Shown: positions 14,403 through 36,663, counted from the stretch's first letter. The stretch: 55,990 nt of DNA from a virus (IMGVR_UViG_3300030116_005147:1-55990); one strand, 5' to 3'. Translations and numbers: made by a program. The notes: generated by a model not told the origin, from the sequence alone.

Positions 14403-14538
14403 ATCGCCACCGTCTAATGCTGTTTATAGATGGAGGGACATTGCCGGGTAGAAAATCAGACAACCGAGAAGCAATCATGCCGTCGGTGTATCCGTTGTCT
14501 CGCAGTTCTTGTATTATTTCTTTTATGGATGTACCCAT
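14314..14538 (-). CDS. Small helix-turn-helix DNA-binding protein, candidate regulator (74 aa)
   Basis: Residues about 5-60 form three helices with the pattern GYTDGMIASRL, then PSINSIRRWRYGKTQPSPPYRAAV, the shape of a Xre/MerR-like HTH with a basic recognition helix. The start ATG lies inside a GTACCCATGTGAGCCT operator half-palindrome, and a second, overlapping operator (14542-14557) lies just upstream. It is therefore the obvious candidate for the protein that binds these sites and controls its own synthesis. Its 3' end overlaps the next gene by 89 bases. Binding is inferred, not shown. Confidence 0.65.
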   Translation of the reverse strand: MGTSIKEIIQELRDNGYTDGMIASRLSDFLPGNVPPSINSIRRWRYGKTQPSPPYRAAVRKLYEEANKAMPGRK

Positions 14539-14557
14539 GTGAGCCTCACCTGAGTAC
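14531..14557. promoter_or_regulatory. Double operator-like palindrome over HTH gene start
   Basis: Two 16-bp sites of the GTACYCA-NN-TGRGTAC family overlap by five bases: 14531-14546 (GTACCCATGTGAGCCT, good left half) and 14542-14557 (AGCCTCACCTGAGTAC, good right half). They cover the ribosome binding site and start codon of the leftward HTH gene, right after the resolvase stop. The arrangement suggests autoregulation. Confidence 0.6.
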
Positions 14558-14558
14558 C

Positions 14559-15044
14559 TTAGCGAGATCTTCGCCAGCGGTCAATGCCCTGTTTCCTAAA
14601 GTAATAAGCGCCAATGCCTATCGCATCCCACGCATCGTGCGTAGCGTTGCTTGCTATGTTGCTTTTCTCTTTGTCTGTCAAGCGCGACCGTAATCTCTTA
14701 CGTGATATTTCTTTAGGTACTTGCCCTTTCCATTCAGCGGGCTTGTAGCCTTTTAGCTTAGCGCCTTTGAATCGCCAGACAAAAGCACCGAGTACGCCTG
14801 TCAACTCCAGCAGGTCATCTGCGTTAGTCGTCTTGTCTCGATACACTTGCATCTGCTCGCACACCAGAACCGAAATGTCTGGTGAGATTTTAACGGCTTC
14901 TACCATCTTGACCCACGCAGCAGGACCACGCGCACCCCCTCGGGCACGGGCTGTCCATGCCCGAAGGAGTCTTCCGTCAGCAGTCCAAAGCGCACAACCG
15001 CACTTTCGCAGTCCAGGGTCAATGCTTAGTACGGTTCCCAACAT
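14559..15044 (-). CDS. RuvC-like Holliday junction resolvase (161 aa)
   Basis: The N-terminus has the RNase H-fold motif SIDPG with Asp9. Glu63 follows a strand (VLVCEQMQVY), and a C-terminal acidic pair lies in HDAWDAIGIGAYY (Asp137, Asp140). These are the acidic positions expected of RuvC-type nucleases. The gene overlaps the 3' end of the DNA polymerase gene by 19 bases and is co-oriented with it. Probable role: resolving branched replication or recombination intermediates before packaging. Confidence 0.8.
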   Translation of the reverse strand: MLGTVLSIDPGLRKCGCALWTADGRLLRAWTARARGGARGPAAWVKMVEAVKISPDISVLVCEQMQVYRDKTTNADDLLELTGVLGAFVWRFKGAKLKGYKPAEWKGQVPKEISRKRLRSRLTDKEKSNIASNATHDAWDAIGIGAYYFRKQGIDRWRRSR

Positions 15045-16936
15045 AGTAGTTTGCCCTCCTCGTCTCTGGATTCTTCTGCTCCCTTGTACCAGCGGCGCAT
15101 TGCAGCAGGTTCTGCGTCAATCTTGACATCGGGGATGTAGACTTTCATGGCCTCGACCATGACTTCAGCGAGTCTATCTGCGGCTGCGGTCCGTTCTTCG
15201 ATGCTCTCAGGCACCTCGACGAGAAGCTCATCGTGAATAAAAGCAACAGGACGGCAACCAAACAGCGGGCTTTCTTCTCGGACATAGCACTCCTTCATTA
15301 CTTCCCAGATAGCGTGTTTAGCTCCGTCGGCAGCTAATCCTTGGAAGAACGTATTACAACCAGCGCAATAGTTTGTGCCTCCTCTCAACCTGCCAGAGCG
15401 TAGTTGCTCTACCGTGAAGTCGTTACCCATTTGGCTAAGGGCTGCTACGTGTCGAAAGAACTCCTGCATCTCAGGCCACGTATCAATCCACTGATACTTA
15501 AGTTCTACTGCTCGGTCTTCCGAGATGTCTACGTTGTATCCTGCCTTAGCAAACGATACGAAAGAAGCAGCGCCCATGCCGCCGGGGAACCCGAAGTTAA
15601 GAGCTTTGGATAGCTGCCTTGCTTCTTTGACTTTCTCGTCTCCCTCTTTTCTTTTGGTCTTGGCGTCTTCGTATGACATTCCTAAGAGGTTGGCTGCCAT
15701 AGCAAGGTGCAGGTCCATTCCGTTGTTGATGGCGTTGGCCATCTCAGACCAACCGAACAGGTCCAAGCAAGCTTGAGACAAAGCACAAAGCTCCAGTGTC
15801 GAGTAGTCGCAGGCTACGAAGACCGTCCCTTCTCGGGGCACGTATGCTTCTCGGATACCACCCATCCTCGGTACGTTCTGGATGTTGGGTCTGTAGCTAC
15901 TGGTGCGTCCAGACTCCTTTAAGAGATCGTAGGATGGATTGAGAGGCACCTGTGTCCCTTGCTTGAGCACGGGGATGTACGTAGTCAGGAGCTTTTCAGC
16001 GTTGGTGTTTGACCCGTACTCCACGAGCAGGGGGTCACCGCTATGTCGCAGTGTCTCTCTCGACGTAGAGATCCTACCAGTCTCGGTCATGGGAGGACGC
16101 TTGCCTTGCTTACCGTATGCTCGACGCACCCTCTCCTTAATCGCCGCCATGTTCTTAGATGTTTTACGTTCTCCTTTGACAGTCTTGATTCGGGTGAGCC
16201 CTGCACTTTGAAGGTCTGCTTGTAGCTTCTCCACCTTGGGCTTGAGCACAGCTTCCAGCTTAGCAACTTGCTCTCCGTCGGTGCGAATGCCCCAGACTGA
16301 AATCAAGTGAAGACCCCACGCTGCTCGCATCTGCTCGTCTTCGTTGGTGACCCCGTCCGGTCCTGCGTACATTCTGCCTTCACATTGGAATGGCTGTGCT
16401 TGGGATTGGTACACTTTGTAGGTCCACTTGGAATCGTCCATAGCGTACGCGGCAGCAGCAGGCGGCCAAGAAGCCAGAGGCACTCCGTCCAACTCGTTAT
16501 ACCTAAGTCGCCAAGCGTCGTCTCCTTTCTTGGATTCGCTAAGGTCTACCCTGAACCTATTGTTTACAAGAGTAGCTAAGGAGAACGAAGGGCGTTGTTT
16601 CTTATTTACATAGTCGTAAGTCAAGCGACCTTGCGCCAAGAAGAGAAGCTTCTCTCTAACCTGCGTGTCCTTAATCCTGCCCTGCTCTATGGCGTTGAAG
16701 ATCAAGGGCAACAAAGAGCCATCCTCCGCTGCCAGAACTGCAAGGTCAAAGCTCACGTTGTGCCCTACCAGAATCAACCCGCTGTCCGATAGCGCGTGCC
16801 TGGCCCACATGACTGCGTCTTTTCGCAACATCAAGTCTTCCGTCTCTCCGTCGTAGGTAGAAAGACAGACCAACCTGGGCGCGAGACAGCCCGGTTTAAT
16901 GAGATGTGTTTCTGTATCAAATGCTATTACTTTCAT
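15026..16936 (-). CDS. polA-like: Family A DNA polymerase with 3'-5' exonuclease (636 aa)
   Basis: The N-terminal exonuclease domain shows FDTET (Asp7, Glu9) and GHNVSFDLAVL. The polymerase domain has motif A as DYSTLELCALSQ, motif B as RQLSKALNFGFPGG and motif C as FIHDELLVEVP. The motif B residue equivalent to E. coli Phe762 is Phe (K-A-L-N-F). In motif A the usual Gln-Ile is Thr-Leu and the following Arg is Cys. At 636 residues it lacks a 5'-3' nuclease domain, as is usual in phages. ATG 16936 has a clear GGAGG. It follows a terminator-like hairpin downstream of the SSB-like gene and overlaps the resolvase. Probable phage replicase. Confidence 0.92.
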   Translation of the reverse strand: MKVIAFDTETHLIKPGCLAPRLVCLSTYDGETEDLMLRKDAVMWARHALSDSGLILVGHNVSFDLAVLAAEDGSLLPLIFNAIEQGRIKDTQVREKLLFLAQGRLTYDYVNKKQRPSFSLATLVNNRFRVDLSESKKGDDAWRLRYNELDGVPLASWPPAAAAYAMDDSKWTYKVYQSQAQPFQCEGRMYAGPDGVTNEDEQMRAAWGLHLISVWGIRTDGEQVAKLEAVLKPKVEKLQADLQSAGLTRIKTVKGERKTSKNMAAIKERVRRAYGKQGKRPPMTETGRISTSRETLRHSGDPLLVEYGSNTNAEKLLTTYIPVLKQGTQVPLNPSYDLLKESGRTSSYRPNIQNVPRMGGIREAYVPREGTVFVACDYSTLELCALSQACLDLFGWSEMANAINNGMDLHLAMAANLLGMSYEDAKTKRKEGDEKVKEARQLSKALNFGFPGGMGAASFVSFAKAGYNVDISEDRAVELKYQWIDTWPEMQEFFRHVAALSQMGNDFTVEQLRSGRLRGGTNYCAGCNTFFQGLAADGAKHAIWEVMKECYVREESPLFGCRPVAFIHDELLVEVPESIEERTAAADRLAEVMVEAMKVYIPDVKIDAEPAAMRRWYKGAEESRDEEGKLLCWEPY

Positions 16937-16949
16937 ATTTCCTCCAGAG

Positions 16950-16984
16950 AAAACCCCCCACCAGCGGGGAACACTGATGGGGGG
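16950..16984 (-). terminator. Intrinsic terminator / attenuator before polymerase gene
   Basis: On the minus strand CCCCCCA pairs with TGGGGGG around a loop that contains a second short GC stem, followed by TTTTCTC. The structure lies between the SSB-like gene and the polymerase ribosome binding site. It may end most transcription of the abundant SSB-like protein and let a fraction pass on to the polymerase. Confidence 0.65.
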
Positions 16985-17010
16985 CAGACGAAACTTGAGT
17001 TTTCCCTACC

Positions 17011-17457
17011 TTAGTTGTCGTCTTCTCCCTGTAGTGCAGACCAAAAATGCTTTGAGAAAACCCCTCCTCTCTTGGTCTGTACTTCCTCCACTTGGCAATT
17101 CACTTTTCTACCTGAGACTAAGTCGCCTGGACCGTCTACAAGTTCTTGCATGAACTCTGCATCTACCTCATCTTCGTCTGCGCCTGTGACCGCAACAGCG
17201 AACTTCTTAATATCTGCAAGAGCCATCTGAGGATAGTCGCCTCCCAGCTTAACTACCCAACTGGCACGGGTGCCTGGTCGAATGTCTTCGTTGTTGGATT
17301 CCATAACAGTGGATTCCACTACGAAGAAAGTGCGGTTACCGACAGTAGACTCGGTGAGCTTACAACGCTCGATGGTCAACAGGTGCTGCCCCTCGGGGAG
17401 ATACACACCTTTCTGCTCGGTTGCCTTTACGTTTCCGATTCCTGCAAAAATACTCAT
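17011..17457 (-). CDS. Putative single-stranded DNA-binding protein (148 aa)
   Basis: The product is a beta-rich domain (GVYLPEGQHLLTIERCKL, then RTFFVVESTV, then ASWVVKLGG) compatible with an OB fold. It ends in a short acidic tail (LQGEDDN), a common SSB feature for partner binding. It lies between helicase and polymerase genes with its own promoter-operator upstream and a terminator downstream, as expected for a highly expressed SSB. No exact family was recognised, so the function rests on fold pattern, tail and context. Confidence 0.6.
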   Translation of the reverse strand: MSIFAGIGNVKATEQKGVYLPEGQHLLTIERCKLTESTVGNRTFFVVESTVMESNNEDIRPGTRASWVVKLGGDYPQMALADIKKFAVAVTGADEDEVDAEFMQELVDGPGDLVSGRKVNCQVEEVQTKRGGVFSKHFWSALQGEDDN

Positions 17458-17496
17458 TGTCTTTTCCTTTTCTTGATTTTGTTTTTGTTTTTTAGA

Positions 17497-17512
17497 GTAC
17501 CCACCTGAGTAC
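17497..17512. promoter_or_regulatory. Operator-like palindrome upstream of SSB-like gene
   Basis: GTACCCACCTGAGTAC is an imperfect 16-bp palindrome of the same family as sites at 14531, 20965, 36194 and 36243. It lies about 40 bases before the start codon and just downstream of a candidate minus-strand extended -10 element, so a bound protein would block early transcription. Confidence 0.6.
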
Positions 17513-17520
17513 TCCCTGAC

Positions 17521-17549
17521 TCTATAACAGCAAGCACACCATGTGCAAG
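17521..17549 (-). promoter_or_regulatory. Candidate sigma70-type promoter for SSB-like gene
   Basis: Minus strand: an extended -10 TG-T-TATAGA (TATAGA at 17526-17521), with a weak -35 TTGCAC about 16 bases upstream. The expected start falls near 17513, right at the operator palindrome. Read by eye only. Confidence 0.4.
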
Positions 17550-17551
17550 CT

Positions 17552-19186
17552 TCATGTCCACATCGCAGACAATATCTTCATTCGGTTACCTTGTGTCTCG
17601 TTGATATATCGAGCTACTTCCTTTGCTTTCTTAATGTCTAACCAGACGCTATCGTGTTGGTCAAAGTACCATACGTTTACCTCATCAGCGTCTTGTCCTA
17701 ACCGGTGCGTTCGACCTATCAACTGCTCAAGAGCAGAGCCGTTGGGGAGAAAAGAAGTCAGTAGATTCTCTGACCACCTTTGTAGGTTCTTACCTGTCCC
17801 GTGGGCTGTGATTGACATGGCGCAGTTGTGAGCGGGAACTGAGGGTATCTCCATACCTGCGCCATACGTCGGCAGACCACGCTCCTCAAACTCTTCCAGC
17901 AAGGCGCGATGCTGACACCAGATAATCGTAGGTAACTCTCGGCTGGCTACGAACCGCATCGCTGCATCCACAATGTATTTGTCTATCCAGACAGTACGCA
18001 CGGGTGGGGGCTTCTTCCCTCGCTGTGCATCCCACTCGTTCCATGCACGAACGAGCGCACGGTCATGGCAGGCATCTGACTGCGCCCATCGAGCGACAAG
18101 GAGCGGACTATCCTTTCCTTCCAAAGACCTCTTGAGGATTCGCCTGACCTGTCTGTGCCACTCACCTCGGGCATCAAGCCAGTCCCAATCAGGAGTACCA
18201 TCGGGCCAGTCCCACACATAGTAGAATCCGCACAGTAGTTGTCTCCGAACCCGCGCCATCTCCAGTGCGTCCTCGATCTCTTCCCCTCCTGGTGCTGTCC
18301 AGGTTCTCTCCAAATGGTCGATGGCTTTCTTGACCATGGGAGGAAGAGCGCACTGTGCTGTACGCATGTAGATAGCGCAGGATGCAGACGAGTCCTGCGT
18401 TGCTACTACGCCGGGGGTAGAGCGGAAGCGTCGGAAGTATGCCTCTCGATAGTTACCTCCGTACTTCTCGACCATGGGCTGGAAGCACTGCCTTTCGTAA
18501 GCATCCGGGCTTCCTCCTACGTCCAAGCACGCTGCCCATATCTGTAGTTCCCAGAAGTCCAGGGGGATGGGCGCGTTGTTACGCAGAGAAATCTCTACAA
18601 TGTGCGCGTAGTCTGCCAGTCCCTTCGCAGTCAGTGTCCCGCTCAGGGCTACGAACTTACACGTCGGGTTGCTCTGGAAGTAGCGAATGACTCTCTTGGT
18701 TCGTGTCGCTGTTCGGTGTCGGAGGTGGTGGCACTCGTCGGCTATAATCAAATCAGGCTGCACATCGTCTAAAATCTTAGCGCCTGATGCTACAGACAGC
18801 TTGCTGTAGCTCACCACCCTGATGTTGTTAGAGATGCGGAAGTGCTCTCGGAACTTCTTTATTTCATTTCTTGTTTGAACTTCCAAGGCTGGAGGCACAA
18901 GCAACAGCGGACGCTCGGCACCAACCACTGTGGGCGCAAGGGCACTGATGAGAAACTTGCCATGCCCCACACCAATAGGAGCGCATAGCCCACCGTACTT
19001 CTCTAGATGGTAGAGTGCCTTGCTTTGGATAGGTCGCAGAGAGTAGCGACACCCTGGCAGTGCGTACTTACTGGTCTGGTCCGGCACCTTGTCTTCGCCA
19101 CGGGACAGTGCGAGTACCCGTCGCATGCCTGGAGTCATGGGGGGACGATCGGGTTTGTTGGCTTTTAGTTTCTGAAGTGTTCTCAT
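17552..19186 (-). CDS. SNF2/SF2-type helicase (544 aa)
   Basis: An RPIQ helicase entry motif (51-54) precedes a P-loop IGVGHGKFL (Lys77), then LLLVPP (Ia), ADECHHL (DECH at 150-153), LSGT (motif III) and a C-terminal QLIGRTHRLGQ (motif VI), the order of SF2/SNF2-type ATPases. The P-loop has Phe78 where Thr or Ser is normal. The start overlaps the small upstream gene (ATGA). It lies between the nuclease and SSB-like genes of the replication operon. Likely role: DNA translocation or strand separation in replication or recombination. Confidence 0.85.
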   Translation of the reverse strand: MRTLQKLKANKPDRPPMTPGMRRVLALSRGEDKVPDQTSKYALPGCRYSLRPIQSKALYHLEKYGGLCAPIGVGHGKFLISALAPTVVGAERPLLLVPPALEVQTRNEIKKFREHFRISNNIRVVSYSKLSVASGAKILDDVQPDLIIADECHHLRHRTATRTKRVIRYFQSNPTCKFVALSGTLTAKGLADYAHIVEISLRNNAPIPLDFWELQIWAACLDVGGSPDAYERQCFQPMVEKYGGNYREAYFRRFRSTPGVVATQDSSASCAIYMRTAQCALPPMVKKAIDHLERTWTAPGGEEIEDALEMARVRRQLLCGFYYVWDWPDGTPDWDWLDARGEWHRQVRRILKRSLEGKDSPLLVARWAQSDACHDRALVRAWNEWDAQRGKKPPPVRTVWIDKYIVDAAMRFVASRELPTIIWCQHRALLEEFEERGLPTYGAGMEIPSVPAHNCAMSITAHGTGKNLQRWSENLLTSFLPNGSALEQLIGRTHRLGQDADEVNVWYFDQHDSVWLDIKKAKEVARYINETQGNRMKILSAMWT

Positions 19187-19347: not shown

Positions 19348-19364
19348 TTCGGGTTCCTTGTTTC

Positions 19365-19404: not shown

Positions 19405-19418
19405 CGGGATTAGTTGGG

Positions 19419-20972
19419 CTACTTAATCCCCTGTACCACTACGTCCGCAGCCTGGATGAGTACTGTCTTGCAGGCGGGCCAGTAGGGACTATCACTGGAT
19501 ACTGTGATGCAACCAGTGGGTGGTTGAACGCGGAGGCGTCCAGCCACCTCGTTCTTACCTTTTCCGTAGTCAATTTGCAACGGTGTAGAGACTTTGTTTT
19601 CTTCTGCTATCTCTGCAACGAAAGAAGCGATGATGTCTTCAAACATGACAGGAGCAGAAGAAGCACCTTTGGCAGGGACACAGTCAATGTATAGATGCAA
19701 CTGTGGTGCTGTCTCTTTCTTCGGCTCTTCCCTTTTCGTAAAGACTTGAGACTTCAGGTTGGGCTTGGGCTTTGCTACAGTCTTAGGTGTCGCAGCCACT
19801 GGGGGTTGGGGCTTGGTTGCTTGTGGTCGAACGGCAGTGTCCGAAGCCCCTCGATACACTGTTCCCTTTTCGTAGCTCAGTGTGCCTTCGGAGAAGTGGC
19901 ATGCCTTTTCTACATAGTATGGACGCACACGTCCCAGGTCCAGCACACGTCCCACGATGGGGCGAGCGGTGACATTGTTTAGAGATCGAACATCTCGGTT
20001 CCGCATGAACAAGAGCAGTGCGTCGGCAGCTTCCGAATACTGCTCGTCTGTGTACTTGTCTTTCGACGGGGCAGGTTCCGTGAAGTAGAGGATGTCTTTA
20101 GCCACCACGGGCTTGGGTTGTTCTTCTGCTACTCGGGGTGCAGCGTCCTGCGACAGGATGGATGCAGTGCGCTCTCTTCTTCCTTGCAGCATTTTTTGTA
20201 GGCGGTCATTCATATCATTCTCCTTTTCTGTTTTTATGTTTTCAATACCTGCGAATGGAGACTGGCTGTCTCCGAGTGCAGCGCAGGTGTCTGCGTATGG
20301 GCAACCACCAAACGCTCCGCAAGCGGAGGTGTTTGGCTCTACATCTTCAACGCTATCGAGCAGAGACGTTGCCTTAATCTCTGCTGCTACTTTCTTCAGT
20401 CCTTCCCAGTGCTCATCGACATGCTCTCGATCTATGATTGCCGAGACTCTCCGCGCTTCCGGTGCTCCTTTCGTAATGTATTGGATGTGACAGACCTCCA
20501 CGGCGTCTGCGGCAACACATTGGTCGAGTGCATATCGAGCGTATGCGATCATTTGGGGATCGCTCTTCAACTCTTCTTCCGTCTTTGTCCAATCCCAGGA
20601 TGACGTTGTCTTGTGGTCAATGACCACTGGCATCCAAGGTTCCGTCAGGTCCAGCACATCGATGTACCCCAACAGCGGGGGCTCGATGTCCTGCAACTTA
20701 ATCTCTCTTTCAATCTCCAACACACCCTCGGGTAGAAGGTGTAGTCCAGAGGCAGCTATTCTCCCAGCCCGTGTCTCTTCGTCGGGCTCTACTCCGTCAC
20801 GGAGGTACGCTTCTAATACCTCATGCACAGCAGACCCAAGCACCACAGCCTTAGAAGGCTCGGGCTTGGGCGTGTCCGTACACTTCTCGATGTACCACTT
20901 ACGTTTACATAGAGAAAACGTCTTGAACTGAGACGCACTAACGTGCTGTATTTTAGCTTCGGAGGTACTCAT
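19419..20972 (-). CDS. Cas4/RecB-like PD-(D/E)XK nuclease with extra C-terminal region (517 aa)
   Basis: Residues 11-235 carry the RecB/Cas4 nuclease signature: SASQFKTFSLCKRKW, His50 in GSAVHE, Asp105 in GYIDVLD, Asp119-His-Lys121 (VVIDHKTT) and Gln140. Four cysteines (22, 218, 224, 230) in the Cas4 arrangement suggest a 4Fe-4S cluster. Residues 254-517 are a separate Pro/Lys-linked region with no family I know. Start ATG 20972 is inside an operator palindrome and has AAGGG upstream; a longer start at 21008 runs into the primase gene. An internal in-frame ATG with a strong ribosome binding site begins the C-terminal region (see 20211). Role: end processing in replication or recombination. 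Confidence 0.82.
   Translation of the reverse strand: MSTSEAKIQHVSASQFKTFSLCKRKWYIEKCTDTPKPEPSKAVVLGSAVHEVLEAYLRDGVEPDEETRAGRIAASGLHLLPEGVLEIEREIKLQDIEPPLLGYIDVLDLTEPWMPVVIDHKTTSSWDWTKTEEELKSDPQMIAYARYALDQCVAADAVEVCHIQYITKGAPEARRVSAIIDREHVDEHWEGLKKVAAEIKATSLLDSVEDVEPNTSACGAFGGCPYADTCAALGDSQSPFAGIENIKTEKENDMNDRLQKMLQGRRERTASILSQDAAPRVAEEQPKPVVAKDILYFTEPAPSKDKYTDEQYSEAADALLLFMRNRDVRSLNNVTARPIVGRVLDLGRVRPYYVEKACHFSEGTLSYEKGTVYRGASDTAVRPQATKPQPPVAATPKTVAKPKPNLKSQVFTKREEPKKETAPQLHLYIDCVPAKGASSAPVMFEDIIASFVAEIAEENKVSTPLQIDYGKGKNEVAGRLRVQPPTGCITVSSDSPYWPACKTVLIQAADVVVQGIK
20211..20213 (-). other. Internal in-frame start with strong RBS inside nuclease gene
   Basis: ATG at 20213-20211 (Met254 of the nuclease) is preceded six bases upstream by AAGGAG. 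Translation from here would give a separate 264-residue product, MNDRLQKMLQG onward, lacking the nuclease domain. The boundary coincides with the end of the Fe-S cysteine cluster. Confidence 0.5.
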
Positions 20973-20980
20973 GTGAGTAC
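20965..20980. promoter_or_regulatory. Operator-like palindrome over nuclease start codon
   Basis: GTACTCATGTGAGTAC is a perfect 7+7 palindrome with a 2-base centre and is the best copy of the family. It starts two bases after the primase stop and contains the minus-strand ATG of the nuclease gene. Confidence 0.65.
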
Positions 20981-20982: not shown

Positions 20983-23124
20983 TTAAGCCAAATCACTATT
21001 AGATGCAAACACTAATATTTTATTTATTGTTCGCTCGTGCTTTTCAGCACCTCTAATATCTCTATACTCTCTACCTTCTGGTAGTTCGATGCCGGGTTTA
21101 ATCCAGTAGCTCATACGCATCTGGTCTGCCTGAGATCTTTTTAGTGGCGCGGCTCCCAGTTTCCTAAGCATTTTAGATAGTCGGTTGCTGGAGATACGAA
21201 CACCTGCCAGTGCCTTTTGAAACACATCAGTCATGGTAAAGGTTTCGTATCCTGGGCGTTCCAACCATTTTGCCAGAACGCCCATGAGAGGGTCCTCTTC
21301 GGTAAATCTCTCCTCCGCTATTCGCTTCTGCTCTGCCTCCATTGCACGGTCAAGGTGCCAGGGTTCGCCTGCGAGATAGGCTGCTCGGGCTTCTGCCCAC
21401 AGTTGGTTTCTATTCTTCTTGATCCATTCCAGGTTGACGTGTTGCTGTAGGCGCACGGGCCAGAAGCGTCGGCTACCTGTGGGGTCGGTCAGCGGTGTGT
21501 CTTCGTTACTGGTAGCCACGATGCAGGTGTGACGTGGGTAGTCCATTGCCTTTCTTTCAAAGGGCATACGGAAGTTATCTACCTGCGATGTGATGAATGC
21601 CTTGACCTTCTCAGCATCTGAGCGTCGGAAGGATGTGAGTTCTGCGACTTCGTAGATCCATGCTCGGGCGAGCATCATGAACGAGTCCTTGTTCTGCAAG
21701 GGGAGGTCGGTATCTCCGAACCACTCGCCACCTGCCAAGGTACGCAGCAGGGTTGACTTACCCAAGCCCTGTGCCCCGATGAGTAGGAGCACGGTATCTA
21801 CCTTGCAACCTGGAGAGTAGGCTCGGGCACATGCTGAGATAAGAAACTTCTTAGCGATGTTCTGATAATAGGGACTGGGCTCACACCCGAATGCTTTCTC
21901 CATCCATGTGCTTGCTCGTTCTATTCCGTCCCACTCAATCGAGTCCAACCATTCTAATAGTGGGTTCCTTTTGTTGGCGTATACAGCGGAGGCGAAGGCA
22001 TCGAACATCATGTTCTTACCGGGCTCAAAGCCGTAGTGCTCACCAATCCAGATGCGTGCGTTGATGACATCGGAGTCACGCAGTTGGCGCTCGTCAATCA
22101 TTTCGCAGAAGGTACGCTCGTTATACCAGAGTCGATTGGCCCATCGGGTGTCGAGGGTCAGGATGGTCACGGCGTTTTGCAGGCTGTTTCTAAACCCACC
22201 TTGCGCGGTGATGGTCAGTTGTTGGACGACATCTCTTTGTTGTCTGGGCGGAATCCATTCGTCATCCCAGTATGTCTGTCCGTCCTGTGCGGATGTGCAG
22301 ACGAGGTATGCCTGCCCTTCGTCGTTTCTTTTTAGGAAGGCAGAGTCTGTAGAAGATCCTTCATGGAAGGGACACTGCAATCGAATGCGGTGACCGTCAT
22401 GTCCAAGCTCTGCATCGACCAGTTCTCTAAGAGTAGCGTAAGTATTACTCCAATGGTCGAGTAGGTTTACCTCGGAGTACTTCTCTCGACGTATGCCCGT
22501 AGCATTCTCGATGCCGCTAAACACACCGCTGCTCTGACTGGTACGCTCTTGTCTCAGGTTGGGCACAGTCCGAGGTAGTTCATACACTGGCCCATCTGTA
22601 GACATAAGGAGCACAGCAACCGGCTCGTTACCTTTGCGGTTGAACGTACCAGGGGGTCGAAGGATACGTGTACCGGCGTCGGTGGCGTTGATGTCTGCCA
22701 TCGCAAAGCCGACTGTCTCGTTAATCTTATGTGCCAACCAACGGTTGACTGCTTTTGCATGGTCAACGTCATGACCGCCACAAGCAGTCCACAGGTAGAC
22801 GTGGTAACCGTAGCCTGACATAACAACTGCGGAGGGATCTACACCGGCTACCTGCTGGACCACCAACTCGATAGTCTCTAACAACTCTGCAAGATAAGTA
22901 TCGATGGCATCCCTATCCAATCCGTACAGTACCGACTTCGGTACTTGCAACCAATCGGATAAATCAAAGTCCAACACCAAGGTCGGACAACGTAGCAACT
23001 CCGACTTAGTGTGTGACTCTGCGCCCAGGGGGAAGAGTCCGGTCGTAACGTAGACCTCCTGTCCCACCACTCGCTGGGCATATTCTGTTCCCTCATCTAC
23101 CGGAGGGAGATGCCTATACTCCAT
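20983..23124 (-). CDS. AEP-type primase fused to VapE-like helicase (713 aa)
   Basis: The N-terminal part fits an archaeo-eukaryotic-type primase: LDFDLSD with Asp52/Asp54, SGYGYHVYLW with His108, and DAGTRILRPPGTFNRKG (about 149-165). A middle segment has Cys251, His254 and Cys276 of a possible zinc ribbon (CPFHEGSS). The C-terminal half is a VapE-type P-loop ATPase: Walker A GAQGLGKST at 450-458, IYEVAEL with acidic Glu492/Glu495, and VATSNEDTPL sensor. ATG 23124 has GGGGAA upstream. The candidate origin lies immediately upstream, so the protein likely initiates replication there. Confidence 0.85.
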   Translation of the reverse strand: MEYRHLPPVDEGTEYAQRVVGQEVYVTTGLFPLGAESHTKSELLRCPTLVLDFDLSDWLQVPKSVLYGLDRDAIDTYLAELLETIELVVQQVAGVDPSAVVMSGYGYHVYLWTACGGHDVDHAKAVNRWLAHKINETVGFAMADINATDAGTRILRPPGTFNRKGNEPVAVLLMSTDGPVYELPRTVPNLRQERTSQSSGVFSGIENATGIRREKYSEVNLLDHWSNTYATLRELVDAELGHDGHRIRLQCPFHEGSSTDSAFLKRNDEGQAYLVCTSAQDGQTYWDDEWIPPRQQRDVVQQLTITAQGGFRNSLQNAVTILTLDTRWANRLWYNERTFCEMIDERQLRDSDVINARIWIGEHYGFEPGKNMMFDAFASAVYANKRNPLLEWLDSIEWDGIERASTWMEKAFGCEPSPYYQNIAKKFLISACARAYSPGCKVDTVLLLIGAQGLGKSTLLRTLAGGEWFGDTDLPLQNKDSFMMLARAWIYEVAELTSFRRSDAEKVKAFITSQVDNFRMPFERKAMDYPRHTCIVATSNEDTPLTDPTGSRRFWPVRLQQHVNLEWIKKNRNQLWAEARAAYLAGEPWHLDRAMEAEQKRIAEERFTEEDPLMGVLAKWLERPGYETFTMTDVFQKALAGVRISSNRLSKMLRKLGAAPLKRSQADQMRMSYWIKPGIELPEGREYRDIRGAEKHERTINKILVFASNSDLA

Positions 23125-23532
23125 GTTGTTCCCCTTGTACTCACCAACCGGGTCATCCTATCAAAGACATCCCGACCAAGCAAACACTATATGTTGTGTC
23201 TTTTATCGAATCTGCCAAGCACTTACCCATTAAGTGGATGGCATCGATAACATAGGTTCTAACTGTACTTTCTAAATAGCTGCCAAGCACTGTACGTCTG
23301 TGCCCAGAGGAGTGGTTGGCAGCAATAACGTAGCTTCAAACGTAACAACCAAGCCCCTGCCAAGCACACCAACCACTTTTATCAAATTATTTAGTAAGTA
23401 TTTATCTATTAGTTAATCTATTTATTTATTTTATTTGTACTCTAATTATAGTGTGGCACCCGTTTTTACCCCGAGTGCTTGGCAGCCGCCTCATAACCTA
23501 CTTCCTTTGGGCACAATCGCTGCCAACCACAC
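23125..23532. other. Gene-free interval upstream of primase
   Basis: This roughly 400-base gap has no supportable gene. It holds most of the iterons and the AT-rich stretch of the candidate origin. A half-site GTACTCACC at 23141 resembles the operator family, but only one arm matches. Confidence 0.7.
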
Positions 23533-23570
23533 TCAAGAGTGCTTGGCACTGTGCTTGGCAGTGGTTGGCA
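23213..23570. other. Candidate replication origin: TGCCAASCAC iterons
   Basis: Nine perfect copies of TGCCAASCAC in either orientation start at 23213, 23281, 23312, 23358, 23475, 23521, 23539, 23551 and 23561, with single-mismatch relatives near 23235. An imperfect repeat of about 80 bases (GGCATCGATAACATAGGTTC versus GGCAGCAATAACGTAGCTTC) spans two of them. With the adjoining AT-rich segment and the primase-helicase gene next door, this is the classic layout of an iteron origin. The repeats could also be operators for the primase promoter. Confidence 0.65.
23377..23451. other. AT-rich stretch, possible unwinding element
   Basis: About 75 bases of almost only A and T (ATTTATCTATTAGTTAATCT and similar) lie between the two iteron clusters, in a region that is otherwise near-even in base composition. 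It may be the DNA unwinding element. Confidence 0.55.
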
Positions 23571-27215: not shown

Positions 27216-27731
27216 TCACTTCCTATGTTTTGGTTGTTCATATGTTTCTACTAAGCAGCGGGACTCCCACTTAGGGTGGAAGATGAGCACCGCTGACGGT
27301 GCTGGAGAAGGCCCGCCTTCCTTCTCTCCTTGTCTAAACTTTAGCCTGCCTTTGATGAGCAGGATGCGGCTGGCTTTCATGGCGTAGTCATGCCACCACC
27401 GGGTGTCCGTCCGGGCAAATACCAAGACGACCACGTACCTACCCCCATCTAGCAGAGATTGTTCGTAGGCTTTCTGTACCCACTTGCCCACGTCCCTACC
27501 GTAGGGAGGGTTCAGCCAGATGTCGGAACCCGGCCATCGTTCCATAGCCAGGGCATCCTCTCCCAGGTCCGAGCCGGGGCCGAGGTGTCGGATACACAGG
27601 GACGATTCCTTAGTCGCCGCCGCATCCAGGTTGAACAGGAACGTCTCGTTCAGTTCATCGAACAGCCAGTGCGGTGTCTGCCAGCACATATCCTTGGACG
27701 AGAACAGCCCGTCCTGTTTCCAGTTACTCAT
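27216..27731 (-). CDS. Dam-like DNA N6-adenine methyltransferase (171 aa)
   Basis: The catalytic motif NPPYGR lies at about 74-79, preceded by a Trp-led strand (GSDIWL). FNLDAAAT at 33-40 is the usual SAM-side motif of phage N-6-adenine methyltransferases, and residues 105-150 have the family's LVFARTDTRWWHDY and LIKGRLKF strands. Length fits the Dam (PF05869-type) family. ATG 27731 lies in a GGAGGTGAGTGATGA junction. GATC is the expected target of the family. Probable role: protecting phage DNA or marking origin or control sites. Confidence 0.85.
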   Translation of the reverse strand: MSNWKQDGLFSSKDMCWQTPHWLFDELNETFLFNLDAAATKESSLCIRHLGPGSDLGEDALAMERWPGSDIWLNPPYGRDVGKWVQKAYEQSLLDGGRYVVVLVFARTDTRWWHDYAMKASRILLIKGRLKFRQGEKEGGPSPAPSAVLIFHPKWESRCLVETYEQPKHRK

Positions 27732-28411
27732 CACTCACCTCCTTTGACTTTGGCGATTGCTTCGCGCAGGTCACACCGGGCGCGTTGACGAAGCTCTCGA
27801 CGCACTGCTTTCTCGCTCCGCAAAACCGTCTCTTCCAGCGTGATGTGGATGTTGTGAAACGGTCCCACCTTCGTCACCTTGTGGACATGCTCATCGCTTC
27901 GCACAAGGTCCAGAAACTCATCGAGCTTGTAGTGCTTGCGCTTGAGAGTGCCGTCGGGCTGCGGTATCGAATCCTTGATTGGTCGGCGGTTCGCAGTATT
28001 TGGGTTGGGGGGCCAGTCGTCCAAGAGCATGTAGGAGATGACCTCGGCGGGAGGAGTGGCGGAAGTCCACGTTCCTCGGCCTCGCTTCCATCGACAGAGG
28101 AGCGCTCCCCCAATGCTGTTGCGAAACTGGAGGACATAGCGGGCCTTGCGCTTGTAGTTGGCCTTCACCAAGTATTCGCCAAGGGGATCTTCTCCTGTCT
28201 TGGCGACGTAGGCTTGGTAGCGTTTCCAAGCCGCTTCTTGCTTTTCAAAAGAGGGAACGTCCGACTCGTCTACTGGGTCTCTGTCACCGTCACTGACGTA
28301 ATCTACCCAGTAGTTTCCTTCTTCATCCGTCCAGTAGTTGGACTTGTGCCAGCCCATCGAACAGTCTCTATCGTCGCACTGCCAGGGAATCTCTACCATG
28401 ATATAGTCCAT
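27731..28411 (-). CDS. Hypothetical protein, acidic N-terminus (226 aa)
   Basis: ATG 28411 is the junction-cassette start. The N-terminal 60 residues hold paired acidic and aromatic groups and a Cys-His cluster (IPWQCDDRDCSMGWHKSNYW). The middle has a basic patch (NYKRKARYVLQFRN). C-terminal 50 residues are helical and end KGGE through the cassette. No family recognised. Operon partner of the methyltransferase. Confidence 0.55.
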   Translation of the reverse strand: MDYIMVEIPWQCDDRDCSMGWHKSNYWTDEEGNYWVDYVSDGDRDPVDESDVPSFEKQEAAWKRYQAYVAKTGEDPLGEYLVKANYKRKARYVLQFRNSIGGALLCRWKRGRGTWTSATPPAEVISYMLLDDWPPNPNTANRRPIKDSIPQPDGTLKRKHYKLDEFLDLVRSDEHVHKVTKVGPFHNIHITLEETVLRSEKAVRRELRQRARCDLREAIAKVKGGE

Positions 28412-28806
28412 CACTCACCTCCCATGGCCCAGACTGCTGGGCGCTCCTTACCTTCAACCGTTTTCGACCCCATCACAGCCAAGTCAGACGTTCTTACGGG
28501 CTCTCCCGTCTTTCGGTCCGTGAAATGGTTGTGCTTGAACGGGTTATACGTGACGTGCTTTGGTTCGTCGTCAACGTAGAAACGAAGTTCTTCGTCGCAG
28601 AAATCTTTTAGAACGCCACGGGCAAAGGCGTGTACGTTCTTCTTGCCTTCGCGGAGTACTCGCTCACGACCACCCTGCTGGACCACCCAGGTCACGCCCT
28701 CCATCTCCAGGTAGGCGCGGTGGGGTCGGTCGGCAATGAGCTTGCCGTGCGCGTGGCGGATACTCCAGCATTTCTTGTGTAGGTTCCAGTAAACTTCAAC
28801 TCTCAT
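28411..28806 (-). CDS. Hypothetical protein (131 aa), plasmid/phage 'EVYWNLHKKCWSIR' type
   Basis: The N-terminus MRVEVYWNLHKKCWSIRHAH and the middle HAFARGVLKDF, then VTYNPFKHNHFTDRKTGEPV, form a pattern I recall from small phage and plasmid proteins of unknown function. Contains conserved-looking His and Tyr residues. Starts and ends in GGAGGTGAGTGATGA cassettes and ends GGE. Confidence 0.6.
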   Translation of the reverse strand: MRVEVYWNLHKKCWSIRHAHGKLIADRPHRAYLEMEGVTWVVQQGGRERVLREGKKNVHAFARGVLKDFCDEELRFYVDDEPKHVTYNPFKHNHFTDRKTGEPVRTSDLAVMGSKTVEGKERPAVWAMGGE

Positions 28807-28820
28807 CACTCACCTCCTTG

Positions 28821-31259: not shown

Positions 31260-31269
31260 GGTTCAGTCC

Positions 31270-31428: not shown

Positions 31429-31435
31429 AGGGGTT

Positions 31436-32622: not shown

Positions 32623-32648
32623 GGTTTCTATTTCCTATTGGTTTGGGG

Positions 32649-32948: not shown

Positions 32949-32974
32949 GGTTTCTATTTCCTATTGGTTCGGGG

Positions 32975-33265
32975 TTAGCTTTGTTCTTTGGCTGCCACGA
33001 TATGGAAGGCTGGCCGGTTCACGTATTCAGGATCCTGTGGACCGTAGGCAGTGATGGACGCCCACAGTCCGGGGCATGGGGGCATGCCTTGGAGTACTTT
33101 GCAGGAGTCGGTGTCGATCGTTTCACACGCGTGTCTGTTCACTGCCTCACCCAATGCCTCGCGTATGCAGGATGCCTCGACCGTATAGGATGCGACCTGT
33201 ACAGATCCCTTCCATCCGTCGATCTGTTCAAATGTTTTCTGCGTTTGAATTACATAGCGTGTCAT
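32975..33265 (-). CDS. Hypothetical protein (96 aa)
   Basis: Begins MTRYVIQTQKTFEQIDGWKG with strand-helix character and three cysteines (ACETIDTDSC; PPCPG). Its leader is a one-base-shorter copy of the shared cassette. No membrane segment. Small accessory early-type gene of unknown function. Confidence 0.5.
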   Translation of the reverse strand: MTRYVIQTQKTFEQIDGWKGSVQVASYTVEASCIREALGEAVNRHACETIDTDSCKVLQGMPPCPGLWASITAYGPQDPEYVNRPAFHIVAAKEQS

Positions 33266-33269
33266 GGTT

Positions 33270-33455
33270 CTATTTCCTATTGGTTACTGATTTATGGGCG
33301 AGATCTACAGATCTCATGTCGTCAATGTTCGCTAGTGTTACCCAGCTATTGGATTCCAGCGATATCTTCTTAGCTGCTGCCATAGCTCCAAAGAAACGAC
33401 CGGTAAAGGTGCGTGTCTCGTTGGTGGCGTGGATTGTGATCAGGTAGTCTTTCAT
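33270..33455 (-). CDS. Small beta-rich protein (61 aa)
   Basis: MKDYLITIHATNETRTFTGR then FGAMAAAKKISLESNSWVTL. The last residues (VTNRK and stop) are spelled by the leader of the next gene. Resembles small 'strand-helix-strand' phage proteins. Function unknown. Confidence 0.5.
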   Translation of the reverse strand: MKDYLITIHATNETRTFTGRFFGAMAAAKKISLESNSWVTLANIDDMRSVDLAHKSVTNRK

Positions 33456-33460
33456 GGTTT

Positions 33461-33694
33461 CTATTTCCTATTGGTGGGGGTTAGTCCGCACATCCACGTT
33501 CGGAGCCGCTTGCCAACTAAATCATTCGTCTGGTATTCAGACAGGCCCATCGCTTTTCCTTCACATATGATTTCCCACTTGATCTGGTAGTAAAGAGCAT
33601 TGATTTCACGGCACCTTTTGGCATCTAATGAGTCACATTTGTGGAGGGTTATTGTTCCGTCTGCGCTTTTGATCTTTAGGTTTAAGGTGGGCAT
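33461..33694 (-). CDS. Small basic protein (77 aa)
   Basis: MPTLNLKIKSADGTITLHKC then DAKRCREINALYYQIKW; ends LTPTNRK with TNRK-stop supplied by the next leader. Two Cys in the middle, one near the end. No family recognised. Confidence 0.5.
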   Translation of the reverse strand: MPTLNLKIKSADGTITLHKCDSLDAKRCREINALYYQIKWEIICEGKAMGLSEYQTNDLVGKRLRTWMCGLTPTNRK

Positions 33695-33699
33695 GGTTT

Positions 33700-33933
33700 C
33701 TATTTCCTTTTCTGAGATTGACGTTTGATAGCTGCCGCGATCCGCCGTTGTCGGGCTTGATCGCGGAATGATTGAATGGAATCAGAGATCTCCTGATCGA
33801 TCGTTCCGTTGTATGCTTGCGGCCTACCGTAGACCGGCGACGTGTCAACGGTTCGGATCACTCCGTTGATCTTGGCTGAATCGGGACGACCGGGCAGGCC
33901 TCCCATATGGGCAAGGAATGGGGGGAGACTCAT
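33700..33933 (-). CDS. Small protein with basic helical tail (77 aa)
   Basis: Gly/Pro-rich N-terminus (SLPPFLAHMGGLPGRPDSAK), then a helix rich in Arg and Gln (SIQSFRDQARQRRIAAAIKR). Ends QKRK; the KRK-stop is part of the next leader cassette. Its ATG overlaps the stop of the upstream gene. Confidence 0.5.
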   Translation of the reverse strand: MSLPPFLAHMGGLPGRPDSAKINGVIRTVDTSPVYGRPQAYNGTIDQEISDSIQSFRDQARQRRIAAAIKRQSQKRK

Positions 33934-34202
33934 GTTGCACCCTCCGCGATAGCTTGATCAATGGGGAAGCCAGGAACCGGATCATCTTGGACTATTGATA
34001 CGTTGCTGATGTCCAGGCCTGGATATCTGCGCAGAATATATAGCGCCCAGGCTTTAGCCGTTGCATGGTTAGAGCACTGTTTCCTGTGGACTATGCCACC
34101 ATTGAGGATCTCTACAGACCACCGCCCAGATAGGGCGTGATCCCCTGACACGAGATGGCCCAGGGCATATGACAGACCGTTGATTGCTTTGTTGATGCTC
34201 AT
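33930..34202 (-). CDS. Hypothetical protein (90 aa)
   Basis: SINKAINGLSYALGHLVSGD then SGRWSVEILNGGIVHRK, CSNHATAKAWALYILRRYPG. A strand-hairpin plus helix, perhaps a small nucleic-acid or protein-binding fold. ATGA overlap at both ends. No family recognised. Confidence 0.5.
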   Translation of the reverse strand: MSINKAINGLSYALGHLVSGDHALSGRWSVEILNGGIVHRKQCSNHATAKAWALYILRRYPGLDISNVSIVQDDPVPGFPIDQAIAEGAT

Positions 34203-34378
34203 TTGATACCCCCTGCGATCTCAGCTTGTACATCACGTTCGCTCTGATCGATCGCGTTCCAGATCTGTGGATAGTCGCGGATCAATAGGGCGATCGCTCG
34301 GGTTGTAGCTGGCATACCATACTGTTCTTCAGCTATTGACAGGTCAATGTATCGGTTCACAATTTCGTTGTTAGACAT
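34199..34378 (-). CDS. Small helical protein (59 aa)
   Basis: Begins MSNNEIVNRYIDLSIAEEQY, middle ATTRAIALLIRDYPQIWNAI, ends AEIAGGIK. Start has GGAAATTAGAACC after the CCCTGAA repeat spacer. ATGA overlap with the next gene. Function unknown. Confidence 0.5.
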   Translation of the reverse strand: MSNNEIVNRYIDLSIAEEQYGMPATTRAIALLIRDYPQIWNAIDQSERDVQAEIAGGIK

Positions 34379-34390
34379 GGTTCTAATTTC

Positions 34391-34428
34391 CAGGGTTCAG
34401 GGTTTCAGGGTTTCAGGGTTCAGGGTTT
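34391..34428. repeat. CAGGGTT(T) tandem repeat spacer
   Basis: Five units of CAGGGTT or CAGGGTTT lie between the 34427 stop and the 34378 start. Read on the minus strand they are TAAACCCTGAACCCTGAAAC and so on, with the TAA serving as the upstream gene's stop codon. The repeat resembles a telomere repeat in form only. Confidence 0.75.
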
Positions 34429-34621
34429 ATTGACGCGGTGGGCATGGATTGACGGGAAAGTCCGGGTCGGAATGGATAGCGATTGCGTCAACATCGATCG
34501 AAAGTATTCGATCAATCAATTGTGCGTCCGTTTCTCCTGTCTTCCTGCGAGGCATAGCCACCGGTTTGGGCAGTTCGTCAACGATAGATAGGTGCATGGA
34601 TTGCGCTTGTGAAATGGTCAT
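34427..34621 (-). CDS. Small hypothetical protein (64 aa)
   Basis: MTISQAQSMHLSIVDELPKP, then a basic segment (MPRRKTGETDAQLIDRI) and acidic end. Start has GGAAATAAAACC. Stop TAA is the first triplet of the tandem repeat spacer. No family recognised. Confidence 0.5.
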   Translation of the reverse strand: MTISQAQSMHLSIVDELPKPVAMPRRKTGETDAQLIDRILSIDVDAIAIHSDPDFPVNPCPPRQ

Positions 34622-34632
34622 GGTTTTATTTC

Positions 34633-34654
34633 CAGGGTTCAGGGTTCAGGGTTT
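34633..34654. repeat. CAGGGTT tandem repeat spacer, second locus
   Basis: Three units of the same repeat as at 34391, placed in the same way between a stop TAA and the next gene's GGAAAT-AAAACC ribosome binding site. Second occurrence of one junction type. Confidence 0.7.
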
Positions 34655-34844
34655 ATGCGTCTGATCGTTGGGCTACTCGCTCGGCGTATCGATGCGATAA
34701 GACGGCAGCAACACCAGGATCAGAAGGATCACCGACTTGTTCACAATAAACGTTTCTGAGAATGATTAGCTCCTCTACAATTTTAGCGTCGCCATTGATT
34801 AGGTGGTGTCGGATTAGTCCGTTGAGAATTTCGATTGTTGTCAT
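34653..34844 (-). CDS. Small helical protein, first gene of leftward accessory operon (63 aa)
   Basis: ATG 34844 with AAGGAAC upstream; a longer start at 34886 would run into the leader hairpin. MTTIEILNGLIRHHLINGDA, then VEELIILRNVYCEQVGD, ending VAQRSDA. Helical, cytoplasmic. No family. The structured leader upstream suggests translational or transcriptional control. Confidence 0.55.
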   Translation of the reverse strand: MTTIEILNGLIRHHLINGDAKIVEELIILRNVYCEQVGDPSDPGVAAVLSHRYAERVAQRSDA

Positions 34845-34857
34845 GGTTTTGTTCCTT

Positions 34858-34917
34858 GTTTCCGGTTCTAAACCTGACACGATCACGATCGATCATGCCA
34901 GGATCCGAACCGGAAAA
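34858..34917 (-). promoter_or_regulatory. Structured leader hairpin of accessory operon
   Basis: TTTCCGGTTC (34859-34868) pairs with GAACCGGAAA (34908-34917). An inner CCTG/CAGG pair encloses ACGATCACGATCGATCAT, which is dense in GATC. A stem of this kind ends just before the first gene of the leftward operon. Could be an mRNA control element or a binding site for a methylation-sensitive protein. Confidence 0.5.
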
Positions 34918-34920
34918 TTG

Positions 34921-35004
34921 GCCCGGTCGCTATCTCCTTCTCTCCATATTTTGGGTTTGTCTCTCCATATTTTGGGTTTGTACACTTTGAGACAGCGACC
35001 GGGC
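34921..35004. repeat. 11-bp inverted repeat enclosing a 21-base tandem duplication
   Basis: GCCCGGTCGCT (34921-34931) and AGCGACCGGGC (34994-35004) are perfect inverted repeats. Between them TCTCCATATTTTGGGTTTG occurs at 34941 and again at 34962. The element lies in the leader of the leftward operon. A looped stem or protein-binding array is possible. Confidence 0.6.
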
Positions 35005-35526
35005 ATCAAATAAAATCACCCCATTGCCTATGGGATTAGATGGGCGGGAATTTCCAACGTGTCACTACATAGGGTGCCTCCTATGCCGTCGGTGTGCTTG
35101 CAAGCTTGAACGGTTCCACTCACTTATCTATTACGGTGATCATTGTCCGGGGCTCGCTCCCTACCTCGCTCGGGGCAGATCATAGCTGTTCGGACGATCC
35201 CGCAATCCTTTAGATCGTGTACTGCGTTCTTACTTGGGGGTTGGTGCTGTCATGGCACTGTCCCGTCCATCATTGCGCTAGGCTGTTCGGTTCTGTATTC
35301 CGGTGGAGAATGCGTCTCCACTGGTCAAGGGTTGCCGGATATTGGCTTTGCGCTCTACGTATATTGGGTTTGTCAAAGATCGCTCGCTGTTGTCGTTCCT
35401 CAGTCGTTAGCAGCGAGTGGAGATTTGAAAGAACTAAATAAGAATGATTTACAATCACGTAACCCATTAGACCATAACGTGAATATAGCGTGATTTAACT
35501 GTAGGTAAGTTCTCTAATTTATTCAA

Positions 35527-35746
35527 TAAAATCAACAACTTACGTCATTCAGCGAAAACCCAGTTTAAACCTGCATTATCGGCTAAAAGATCCTAAAAGA
35601 TCCCCTAAATTAACTATTTCTGTCAAAGAAATGTCAAGACTGAAAACCCAGTTTAAACCTGCGTTTTCGCTGAATCTGTCTATTAGATTAACTAATAAAA
35701 TTAGCCAGATTTTAAAACCAAAACCCAGTAAAATCAACAACTTACG
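35527..35746. repeat. Nested direct and inverted repeats
   Basis: TAAAATCAACAACTTACG occurs at 35527-35544 and 35729-35746. GAAAACCCAGTTTAAACCTG starts at 35554 and at 35642, and AAAACCCAGT appears again at 35720. ATTCAGCGAAAAC (35547-35559) is inverted as GTTTTCGCTGAAT (35663-35675). CTAAAAGATC is repeated in tandem at 35583 and 35593. The ordered nesting suggests a protein-binding complex, a second origin, or a packaging site. Confidence 0.7.
35609..35637 (-). promoter_or_regulatory. Candidate leftward promoter
   Basis: Minus strand TTGACA (35637-35632), 17-base spacer, GTTAAT (35614-35609). The -35 is perfect, the -10 matches at four of six. It could serve the leftward accessory operon, although its first gene is about 760 bases away. 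Confidence 0.3.
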
Positions 35747-35805
35747 GCTACTGGTCTTGACAAGCCAATAGCGTTTAAAGGGCCGTAAAGGGGCCTACAC
35801 GGCCT

Positions 35806-35821
35806 CTGAATCGAAATTCAG
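35806..35821. other. Hairpin CTGAAT-CGAA-ATTCAG
   Basis: A perfect 6-bp stem with a CGAA loop, extendable by flanking GGCC on both sides, followed by more GGCC-containing repeats and the 12-bp palindrome GTGAGGCCTCAC at 35852-35863. No T-run, so not a convincing terminator. Confidence 0.5.
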
Positions 35822-36193
35822 GCCCTACCATGTAAAATCGTCCGGGAGCCCGTGAGGCCTCACAGCGGCCAAATTCGCAATTTTGAGATCTGGCTAAATT
35901 TAGCCTATTTTGTAAACGCTGTTCACTGTTTTAAACCGGCCAATTTCGGGTATCGATTAAACGGCCTGACAGCCCCGTGGTTCTATCCAGATCTGTATCC
36001 GTCCCACTGTAGATCAAAACGATCGGAGGCATTCAGGCCAGCACAGCGACCGATAGAAGCGATCAAAAAAATAGAGAAAAAAGAGATCGATTAAGGCTCC
36101 GATTAAATTATTTATTTTTAGGCATCCCGACTTTCGACTACCCCCCAATCCAATCCAACCCCCCACTCACATCAATACTTATTTTTTCTGATA

Positions 36194-36209
36194 GTACCCA
36201 CATGTGTAC
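36194..36209. promoter_or_regulatory. Operator-like palindrome upstream of terminase genes
   Basis: GTACCCACATGTGTAC, same family as sites at 14531, 17497 and 20965. It would cover the -35 region of a possible promoter with -10 TATTTT at 36225-36230. Confidence 0.6.
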
Positions 36210-36240
36210 CCCGTCTCGACGCAGTATTTTTCTGGCCTAA

Positions 36241-36663
36241 ATGTACCCAGGTGGGTATGCTGTACTAAACCTGGGGGCTCTTGTGGAAAGGGACGAGCTG
36301 GAAACACGCCTGGAAGTGCTGCTTGCACCGGGTGTTATGCGCGAGTACGAGGATGTCATGGACGCGGCTGCTGCTTTGGCGCATGGCACCTCGCTCAATC
36401 TCATCAATCCGGCTGCGAGTAGGTCTGCTCATGGCTTTTTGGAGCTGGCTCACAAGGCGATTCGCGACCGTGAGACGCCTTCGGGCACGGAGGGCACTAA
36501 CGCTGGTATTACAAATCTGATTGCGATTGCTACGGGAGGCGAACAAATAGCTCCTACTATTACTACGCAACAAACTATTAAGCCAAAACGAATAGATAAA
36601 GAATCTATTTTAGACGAGATATTCGATGTCGAACCCCAGCGGTCACGCTCAGACAATACTTAA
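36241..36663 (+). CDS. Putative terminase small subunit (140 aa from ATG)
   Basis: It precedes and overlaps the large terminase gene by 38 bases. The product is a charged helical protein (ERDELETRLEVLLAPGVMRE, then LAHGTSLNLINPAASRSAHG) with a basic C-terminal region (IKPKRIDKESILDEIFDVEP), compatible with a DNA-recognising small terminase subunit. ATG 36241 lacks a ribosome binding site. GTG 36283, with GGGGG six bases upstream, is an alternative that would place the 36243 operator in the leader and give 126 residues. Assignment is mainly by position. Confidence 0.6.
   Translation: MYPGGYAVLNLGALVERDELETRLEVLLAPGVMREYEDVMDAAAALAHGTSLNLINPAASRSAHGFLELAHKAIRDRETPSGTEGTNAGITNLIAIATGGEQIAPTITTQQTIKPKRIDKESILDEIFDVEPQRSRSDNT
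36243..36258. promoter_or_regulatory. Operator-like palindrome at terminase small subunit start
   Basis: GTACCCAGGTGGGTAT, second copy in this promoter region, beginning about 6 bases after the expected transcription start. Paired sites 49 bases apart (centre to centre) flank the candidate -10. Confidence 0.6.

Follow-up and report, generated by a model that had tools for sequence, protein, structure and literature searches.

Dispersed operators are already known in phages as a class. The C1 repressor of phage P1 has 22 dispersed asymmetric 17-bp operators (PMC8546580), and L5-type repressors, monomers that each have two DNA-binding domains, bind more than 20 asymmetric 13-mers, which lie in intergenic gaps and promoters and are oriented with transcription (PMC9283540). 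Aca10, a small four-helix helix-turn-helix (HTH) dimer, represses through ATACGCTCATTGAGCGTAT, with a CTCA-N-TGAG core (PMC9410881). Here, we describe an operator-like family that is a further case of dispersed sites. It lies in the IMG/VR virus record IMGVR_UViG_3300030116_005147, a 55,990-bp stretch from an uncultured phage (here called the window), and is built on the 16-bp palindrome GTACYCANNTGRGTAC (GTACYCA-NN-TGRGTAC; 7+2+7). We consider it likely (probability of roughly 0.7) that these palindromes are operators of a dimeric regulator, probably a phage repressor, that joins replication and packaging genes. Judged from the sequence, they very probably form a common on/off switch whose general type is familiar.

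As in the P1 C1 system, one operator sequence is spread across the phage genome and would place separate operons under one regulator. The P1 sites are asymmetric and serve lysogeny, whereas those of the window are symmetric, number five, and occur where no integrase was found. The likeness to the operators and stoperators of mycobacteriophage L5 lies in the dispersal of sites over promoters and short intergenic gaps; the window sites, unlike the L5-type 13-mers, have the symmetry of 7+2+7 palindromes, as would suit a dimer. The family works like the P1 C1 and L5 operators and is a member of neither, as its sites are symmetric and few. With Aca10, it shares a CTCA..TGAG-type core and a small four-helix HTH protein, the start of whose gene is covered by a palindrome in the window; this is an analogy, and we do not claim homology. 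Aca10 acts on one acr-aca operon; in the window, several operons have sites, and we saw no connection to anti-CRISPR functions. By analogy, the mode of action would be like that of dispersed operators (P1 C1 and L5) combined with Aca-type autorepression. The candidate regulator may also resemble the Cro/C1-type (Xre) regulators P22 c2 and C.Esp1396I in its predicted fold, which matches them with weak E-values.

Number and placement of the sites

Four palindromes in the window match the motif with at most one mismatch (no mismatch at 17497 to 17512 and 20965 to 20980 and one each at 36194 to 36209 and 36243 to 36258), against an expectation of 0.025; in 400 dinucleotide-preserving shuffles, the mean was 0.025 and the maximum was 1. 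Among 1260 palindromic patterns with permuted arm letters, the real motif alone reaches its count. A de novo search for palindrome clusters, to which the motif was not supplied, returned the operator family as the largest cluster of the window, with six members versus at most three in shuffles; two of the six (15423 and 22929) are weak and in-gene and were left out of the site list. The fifth element is a 27-bp imperfect palindrome, GTACCCATGTGAGCCTCACCTGAGTAC, with outer GTACYCA half-sites and two CYCA-NN-TGRG cores at 14534 and 14545, whose centers are 11 bp, or one helical turn, apart. All five elements lie outside genes wholly or by half or more, although the open reading frame (ORF) set used leaves only about 6% of the window uncovered. 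Position 5 of the half-site is C or T and varies independently between half-sites. The sites and the genes beside them are listed here; G043 and L005 are two related contigs introduced below, SSB stands for single-stranded-DNA binding, and terS and terL (protein, TerL) are the small-terminase-like and terminase large subunit genes.

14531 to 14557, no strand: predicted compound operator, the 27-bp imperfect palindrome, covering the ATG of the HTH gene
14314 to 14538, minus strand: HTH protein of 74 amino acids, putatively Cro/C1-like, candidate regulator (structure model, fold matches, and homologues in TerL relatives)
17011 to 17457, minus strand: SSB-like protein gene, fold match to PrgE, 70% identical in G043
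17497 to 17512, no strand: predicted operator, no mismatch, 40 bp before the SSB-like gene, kept at G043 position 1741
19419 to 20972, minus strand: PD-(D/E)XK exonuclease gene (PF12705, 1.4e-17; phrog_69 exonuclease)
20965 to 20980, no strand: predicted operator, perfect 7+2+7 palindrome, kept in the same register at G043 position 5596
36194 to 36209, no strand: predicted operator 1 before terS, one mismatch, kept in L005 with the spacer changed from CA to CC
36243 to 36258, no strand: predicted operator 2 before terS, one mismatch, identical in L005, about 25 bp before the GTG at 36283
36283 to 36663, plus strand: small-terminase-like gene (terS), with a predicted start, named by its position before terL
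36626 to 38323, plus strand: terminase large subunit gene (terL; phrog_2, 3.1e-16), with 40 relatives in IMG/VR

Sites are thus found at the gene starts or promoter regions of several operons (HTH, SSB-like, nuclease, and terS), the positions given in the preliminary description of this DNA, and plus-strand packaging genes run from 36.2 kb. That description had proposed that a single operator family connects replication genes with the packaging operon. The statistics, the site positions, and the independent conservation seen in two relatives support this view; the number of sites that it gave was too high. Of the six sites said to share the 16-bp palindrome, the four strong ones stand, and the 16-mers at 14531 and 14542, with three mismatches each when taken singly, are one 27-bp element. 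A further half-site reported at 23141 (really 23137 to 23143), upstream of the primase gene, is noise: GTACYCA/TGRGTAC heptamers number 15 in the window versus about 14 expected from length, 8 of the 15 lie inside palindromes, and G043 has no site at its primase start, the corresponding place. The elements therefore number five, not seven. The comparison with shuffles that the same description suggested favored the family (four matches versus a mean of 0.025), and the expectation that matches would avoid genes holds for the strong sites only, as weaker matches do fall inside genes. At the three-mismatch level, there are 13 matches in the window versus about 5.5 expected. We did not count the matches at 12429, 15423, 21771, 22929, 27476, 50060, and 52584 (two to three mismatches, in-gene); the one at 22929 has no counterpart within the G043 primase gene.

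The compound element is located in the 20-bp gap that follows the RuvC-like gene; the site at 20965, with the nuclease ATG (20972) embedded in it, lies in the gap that follows the primase gene. The neighboring genes are as follows.

14559 to 15044, minus strand: RuvC-like gene
15026 to 16936, minus strand: PolA gene
17552 to 19186, minus strand: helicase gene
20983 to 23124, minus strand: primase/helicase gene

Start codons had been reported to lie within sites. This is the case at 14531 (HTH ATG, 14538) and at 20965 and is doubtful at 36243. The terS start is probably the GTG at 36283 rather than the ATG at 36241, because the latter is ACG in L005, and the site at 36243 would then precede the gene by about 25 bp.

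Conservation in related contigs

Contig G043 (IMGVR_UViG_3300017697_000030; 42,456 bp) was found via a nuclease search and played no part in motif definition. Protein identity to the window is 71% for PolA, 70% for the SSB-like protein, 64% for the helicase, 56% for the primase, and 50% for the nuclease. G043 has two perfect sites, versus none in 400 shuffles, and both occupy orthologous places, one (1741) before the SSB-like gene and the other (5596) over the nuclease start codon in the same register. These operators are 14/16 and 15/16 identical to their counterparts in the window, against 30 to 56% for the flanking DNA, and the SSB-like site lies 40 to 52 bp upstream of its gene across the two phages. 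G043 also has a two-mismatch site at 8041, 224 bp upstream of the primase gene, and a half-site, GTACCCACATGG, over the TerL ATG (29673), which shows three mismatches when scored as a full site.

In L005, whose TerL is 97% identical to that of the window, both terS sites are kept (15/16 and 16/16). The pair differs by one spacer substitution (CA to CC), and its spacing is reduced from 49 to 39 bp, exactly 10 bp or about one helical turn. The second site is weaker evidence because the DNA downstream of it is conserved anyway. The check at orthologous positions proposed in the preliminary description thus found sites kept in both relatives.

The motif was absent from the more distant relatives examined (TerL, 40 to 67% identical; helicase, 32 to 45%), and searches with PolA, nuclease, primase, and helicase for further members of the subclade yielded only G043 above 50% identity. 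A scan with the two-site pattern matched only L005 and the unrelated element L112, the 27-bp compound site had no match in IMG/VR, and a literature search by the motif letters returned primer sequences only. GTGCCCA variants in the TerL relatives G005 and G006 did not recur at gene starts and are not claimed here. One genome-collection scan gave a single helicase relative (33%) in a contig of a Planctomycetota metagenome-assembled genome, which does not settle the host.

Proposed mode of regulation

A symmetric dimer would read the double-stranded palindrome, with each half reading GTACYCA. We infer that the regulator is most likely phage encoded and most likely a repressor. Where a site covers a start codon (HTH gene and nuclease) or lies just past a -10-like box (SSB-like gene), the bound protein would block initiation, and at the terS pair, it would hold back or time the packaging operon. 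Repression is favored over activation because the SSB-like site sits in the +1 region, where a bound protein blocks initiation: the putative promoter TTGCAC-16-TATAGA is followed by the operator 8 bp on, and in G043, TTGCGC-16-TATACT is followed by it at 6 bp. The TAARG "-10 boxes" before the HTH and nuclease sites are largely the preceding stop codon plus a Shine-Dalgarno-like AAGG and were not counted.

Several observations weigh against operators of a phage repressor. Between 17300 and 36700, sigma-70-like promoter matches were no commoner than in shuffles, and the same scan did not pick out the promoters that we propose. Besides the window, the sites were seen in two related contigs alone, G043 and L005, and the G043 contig ends inside PolA, so that the HTH locus lies beyond its end. 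The operator was absent at the own start and in the fetched flanks of 17/17 homologues of the HTH protein. Finally, a search of the phage found no integrase, and a role in lysogeny is therefore unsupported.

The candidate regulator

Given that the sites are operators, the HTH protein encoded at 14314 to 14538 is a plausible candidate and somewhat more probable than not as their binder. It is the leading candidate because the compound site covers the start of its own gene; the two cores, one helical turn apart, may permit cooperative binding and autorepression. The structure model has four helices (mean pLDDT, 88.6), and its fold matches include P22 c2, DdrO, C.Esp1396I, and Aca10, with PDB E-values of 0.2 or worse. 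Weak fold E-values are usual for a 74-residue protein. One unnamed phage HTH-like model matched at 6.4e-4 in the fold search, and the sequence matched phrog_6831 "transcriptional regulator" at 0.0056. By sequence, the protein had no significant PDB match to the Cro/C1-type (Xre) class, and Pfam HTH_3 had no match anywhere in the window.

A profile search of IMG/VR returned the 17 homologues, which are 32 to 46% identical and differ in the residues around the recognition helix; in several TerL relatives, they adjoin PolA. At their own starts, we found only a few short palindromes of chance size. These homologues without the site, together with distant TerL relatives that have the HTH protein but no operators, suggest a different binder, either another phage DNA-binding protein or a recruited host transcription factor, for which the HTH gene would be merely a target. 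Such a regulator could hide among the many small ORFs of the window that have no assigned family. At 32 to 46% identity and with altered surroundings of the recognition helix, however, the homologues may have operators of their own that differ from those of the window. The sole compound site covers the HTH start, which is the usual sign of autoregulation, and a search of the window turned up no further HTH_3 protein. We regard a different binder as possible, at well below even odds.

DNA sites, RNA elements, or maintenance sequences

Alternatively, the palindromes could function at the RNA level, as mRNA hairpins by which start codons are masked or made accessible (processing sites or translational operators). 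Start codons are embedded in two sites. In RNA folding, the AUG falls in the loop of a strong hairpin at the nuclease junction (z = -3.8), and the HTH junction folds as well (z = -2.4). However, folding of the RNA is expected of any DNA palindrome, and the SSB and terS sites lie about 25 to 75 bp upstream of the start codon. RNA pairing at position 5-12 is broken at the first terS site and at the G043 nuclease site, and neither the terS sites nor the nuclease and TerL sites of G043 folded into a stable hairpin. Because half-sites vary independently at position 5 and RNA pairing is not kept, the sequences favor DNA sites, fitting a dimer on DNA, and RNA elements appear improbable.

A function in DNA maintenance (origin iterons, partition, or packaging recognition) is improbable to the same degree. 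It is suggested by the closeness of the terS pair to packaging genes and by L112, in which six palindromes like GGTACTCATTTGAGTACC, near-identical to the window operator, lie at 6540 to 6686 with 22- to 33-bp spacing near a Rep-like winged-helix ORF. These tandem copies are probably iterons in an apparently unrelated element, whereas the window sites are spread over 22 kb at gene starts and form no array. The window has, moreover, a separate cluster of iteron-like repeats: TGCCAASCAC occurs in nine exact copies, distributed over both strands, at 23213 to 23570, a span of about 360 bp upstream of the primase/helicase gene, and nowhere else (0.25 expected). This cluster is a probable iteron-type replication origin.

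Chance palindromes picked out by a pattern-seeking reader could account for the matches at 14531, 14542, and 23141, which are singly at or near chance level, and are refuted for the four strong sites by the shuffle (4 versus 0.025), permutation (best of 1260 motifs), and G043 (perfect orthologous sites) counts.

Other genes and repeats in the window and in related phages

The label of the SSB-like gene derives from fold comparison, in which its model matches the single-stranded-DNA-binding protein PrgE (E = 1.3e-5); no sequence family supports it. Family searches gave no match for the terS-like gene. The window also encodes a Dam-type adenine methyltransferase (27216 to 27734; PF05869, 3.7e-22) and a mycobacteriophage L5 gp82-like protein (28411 to 28809; 6.7e-30), and short repeats, CCAGGGTTCAGGGTTTCAGGGTT, lie between small minus-strand ORFs at 34380 to 34660.

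Several phages with 30 to 43% identical helicase and PolA carry other repeated palindromes. Those of L156 and L185 lie upstream of genes; those of L140, L145, and L138 are densely packed and mostly within genes. In L140 (1 to 12055), the 15-bp palindrome GTCTCANNNTGAGAC has 33 matches with at most two mismatches in 12 kb versus 0.5 expected; it is also present in L145 and L138, lies mostly within genes, and has a CTCA..TGAG core that resembles the window motif, and the replication genes are homologous. L147 (1 to 14278) has a repeated palindrome of similar form but with a different arm, TTCCCANNNTGGGAA, with 24 matches at no more than two mismatches, within and between genes. In L156, TGTATAWWTATACA is followed by GGGTGTATA, with a AAGTACTT box upstream, at 2886, 4574, 6586, and 16103 before small genes; these may be another phage-specific promoter or operator family. 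L185 (553 to 15847) has seven copies of AGTGNCATGNCACT, several of which adjoin TTGACA, such that the palindrome would fall in the promoter spacer. In L093 (14858 to 15185; G037 34858 to 35185), four ACTATTTNNAAATAGT-like palindromes lie about 2 kb upstream of TerL, and the replication genes are 35 to 47% identical. These cases hint that palindromic signals recur in the group with related replication modules while their sequence changes. No shared regulator was found among these phages, and any link to the operator family of the window is conjectural.

Implications

A broader proposal, which we put forward tentatively, is that one small Cro-like protein coregulates replication (the SSB-like gene, the nuclease gene, and itself) and packaging (terS/terL) as a timer of the infection cycle, through operators that embed start codons, in a lineage without a detected integrase. 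In related replication modules, other palindrome families may have taken over a comparable role, such that the dispersed layout endures through changes in operator sequence. The family described here would be the first predicted regulon for an uncultured phage lineage, with a specific operator and one candidate regulator, and it would link replication and packaging genes, which are separately controlled in many well-studied phages.

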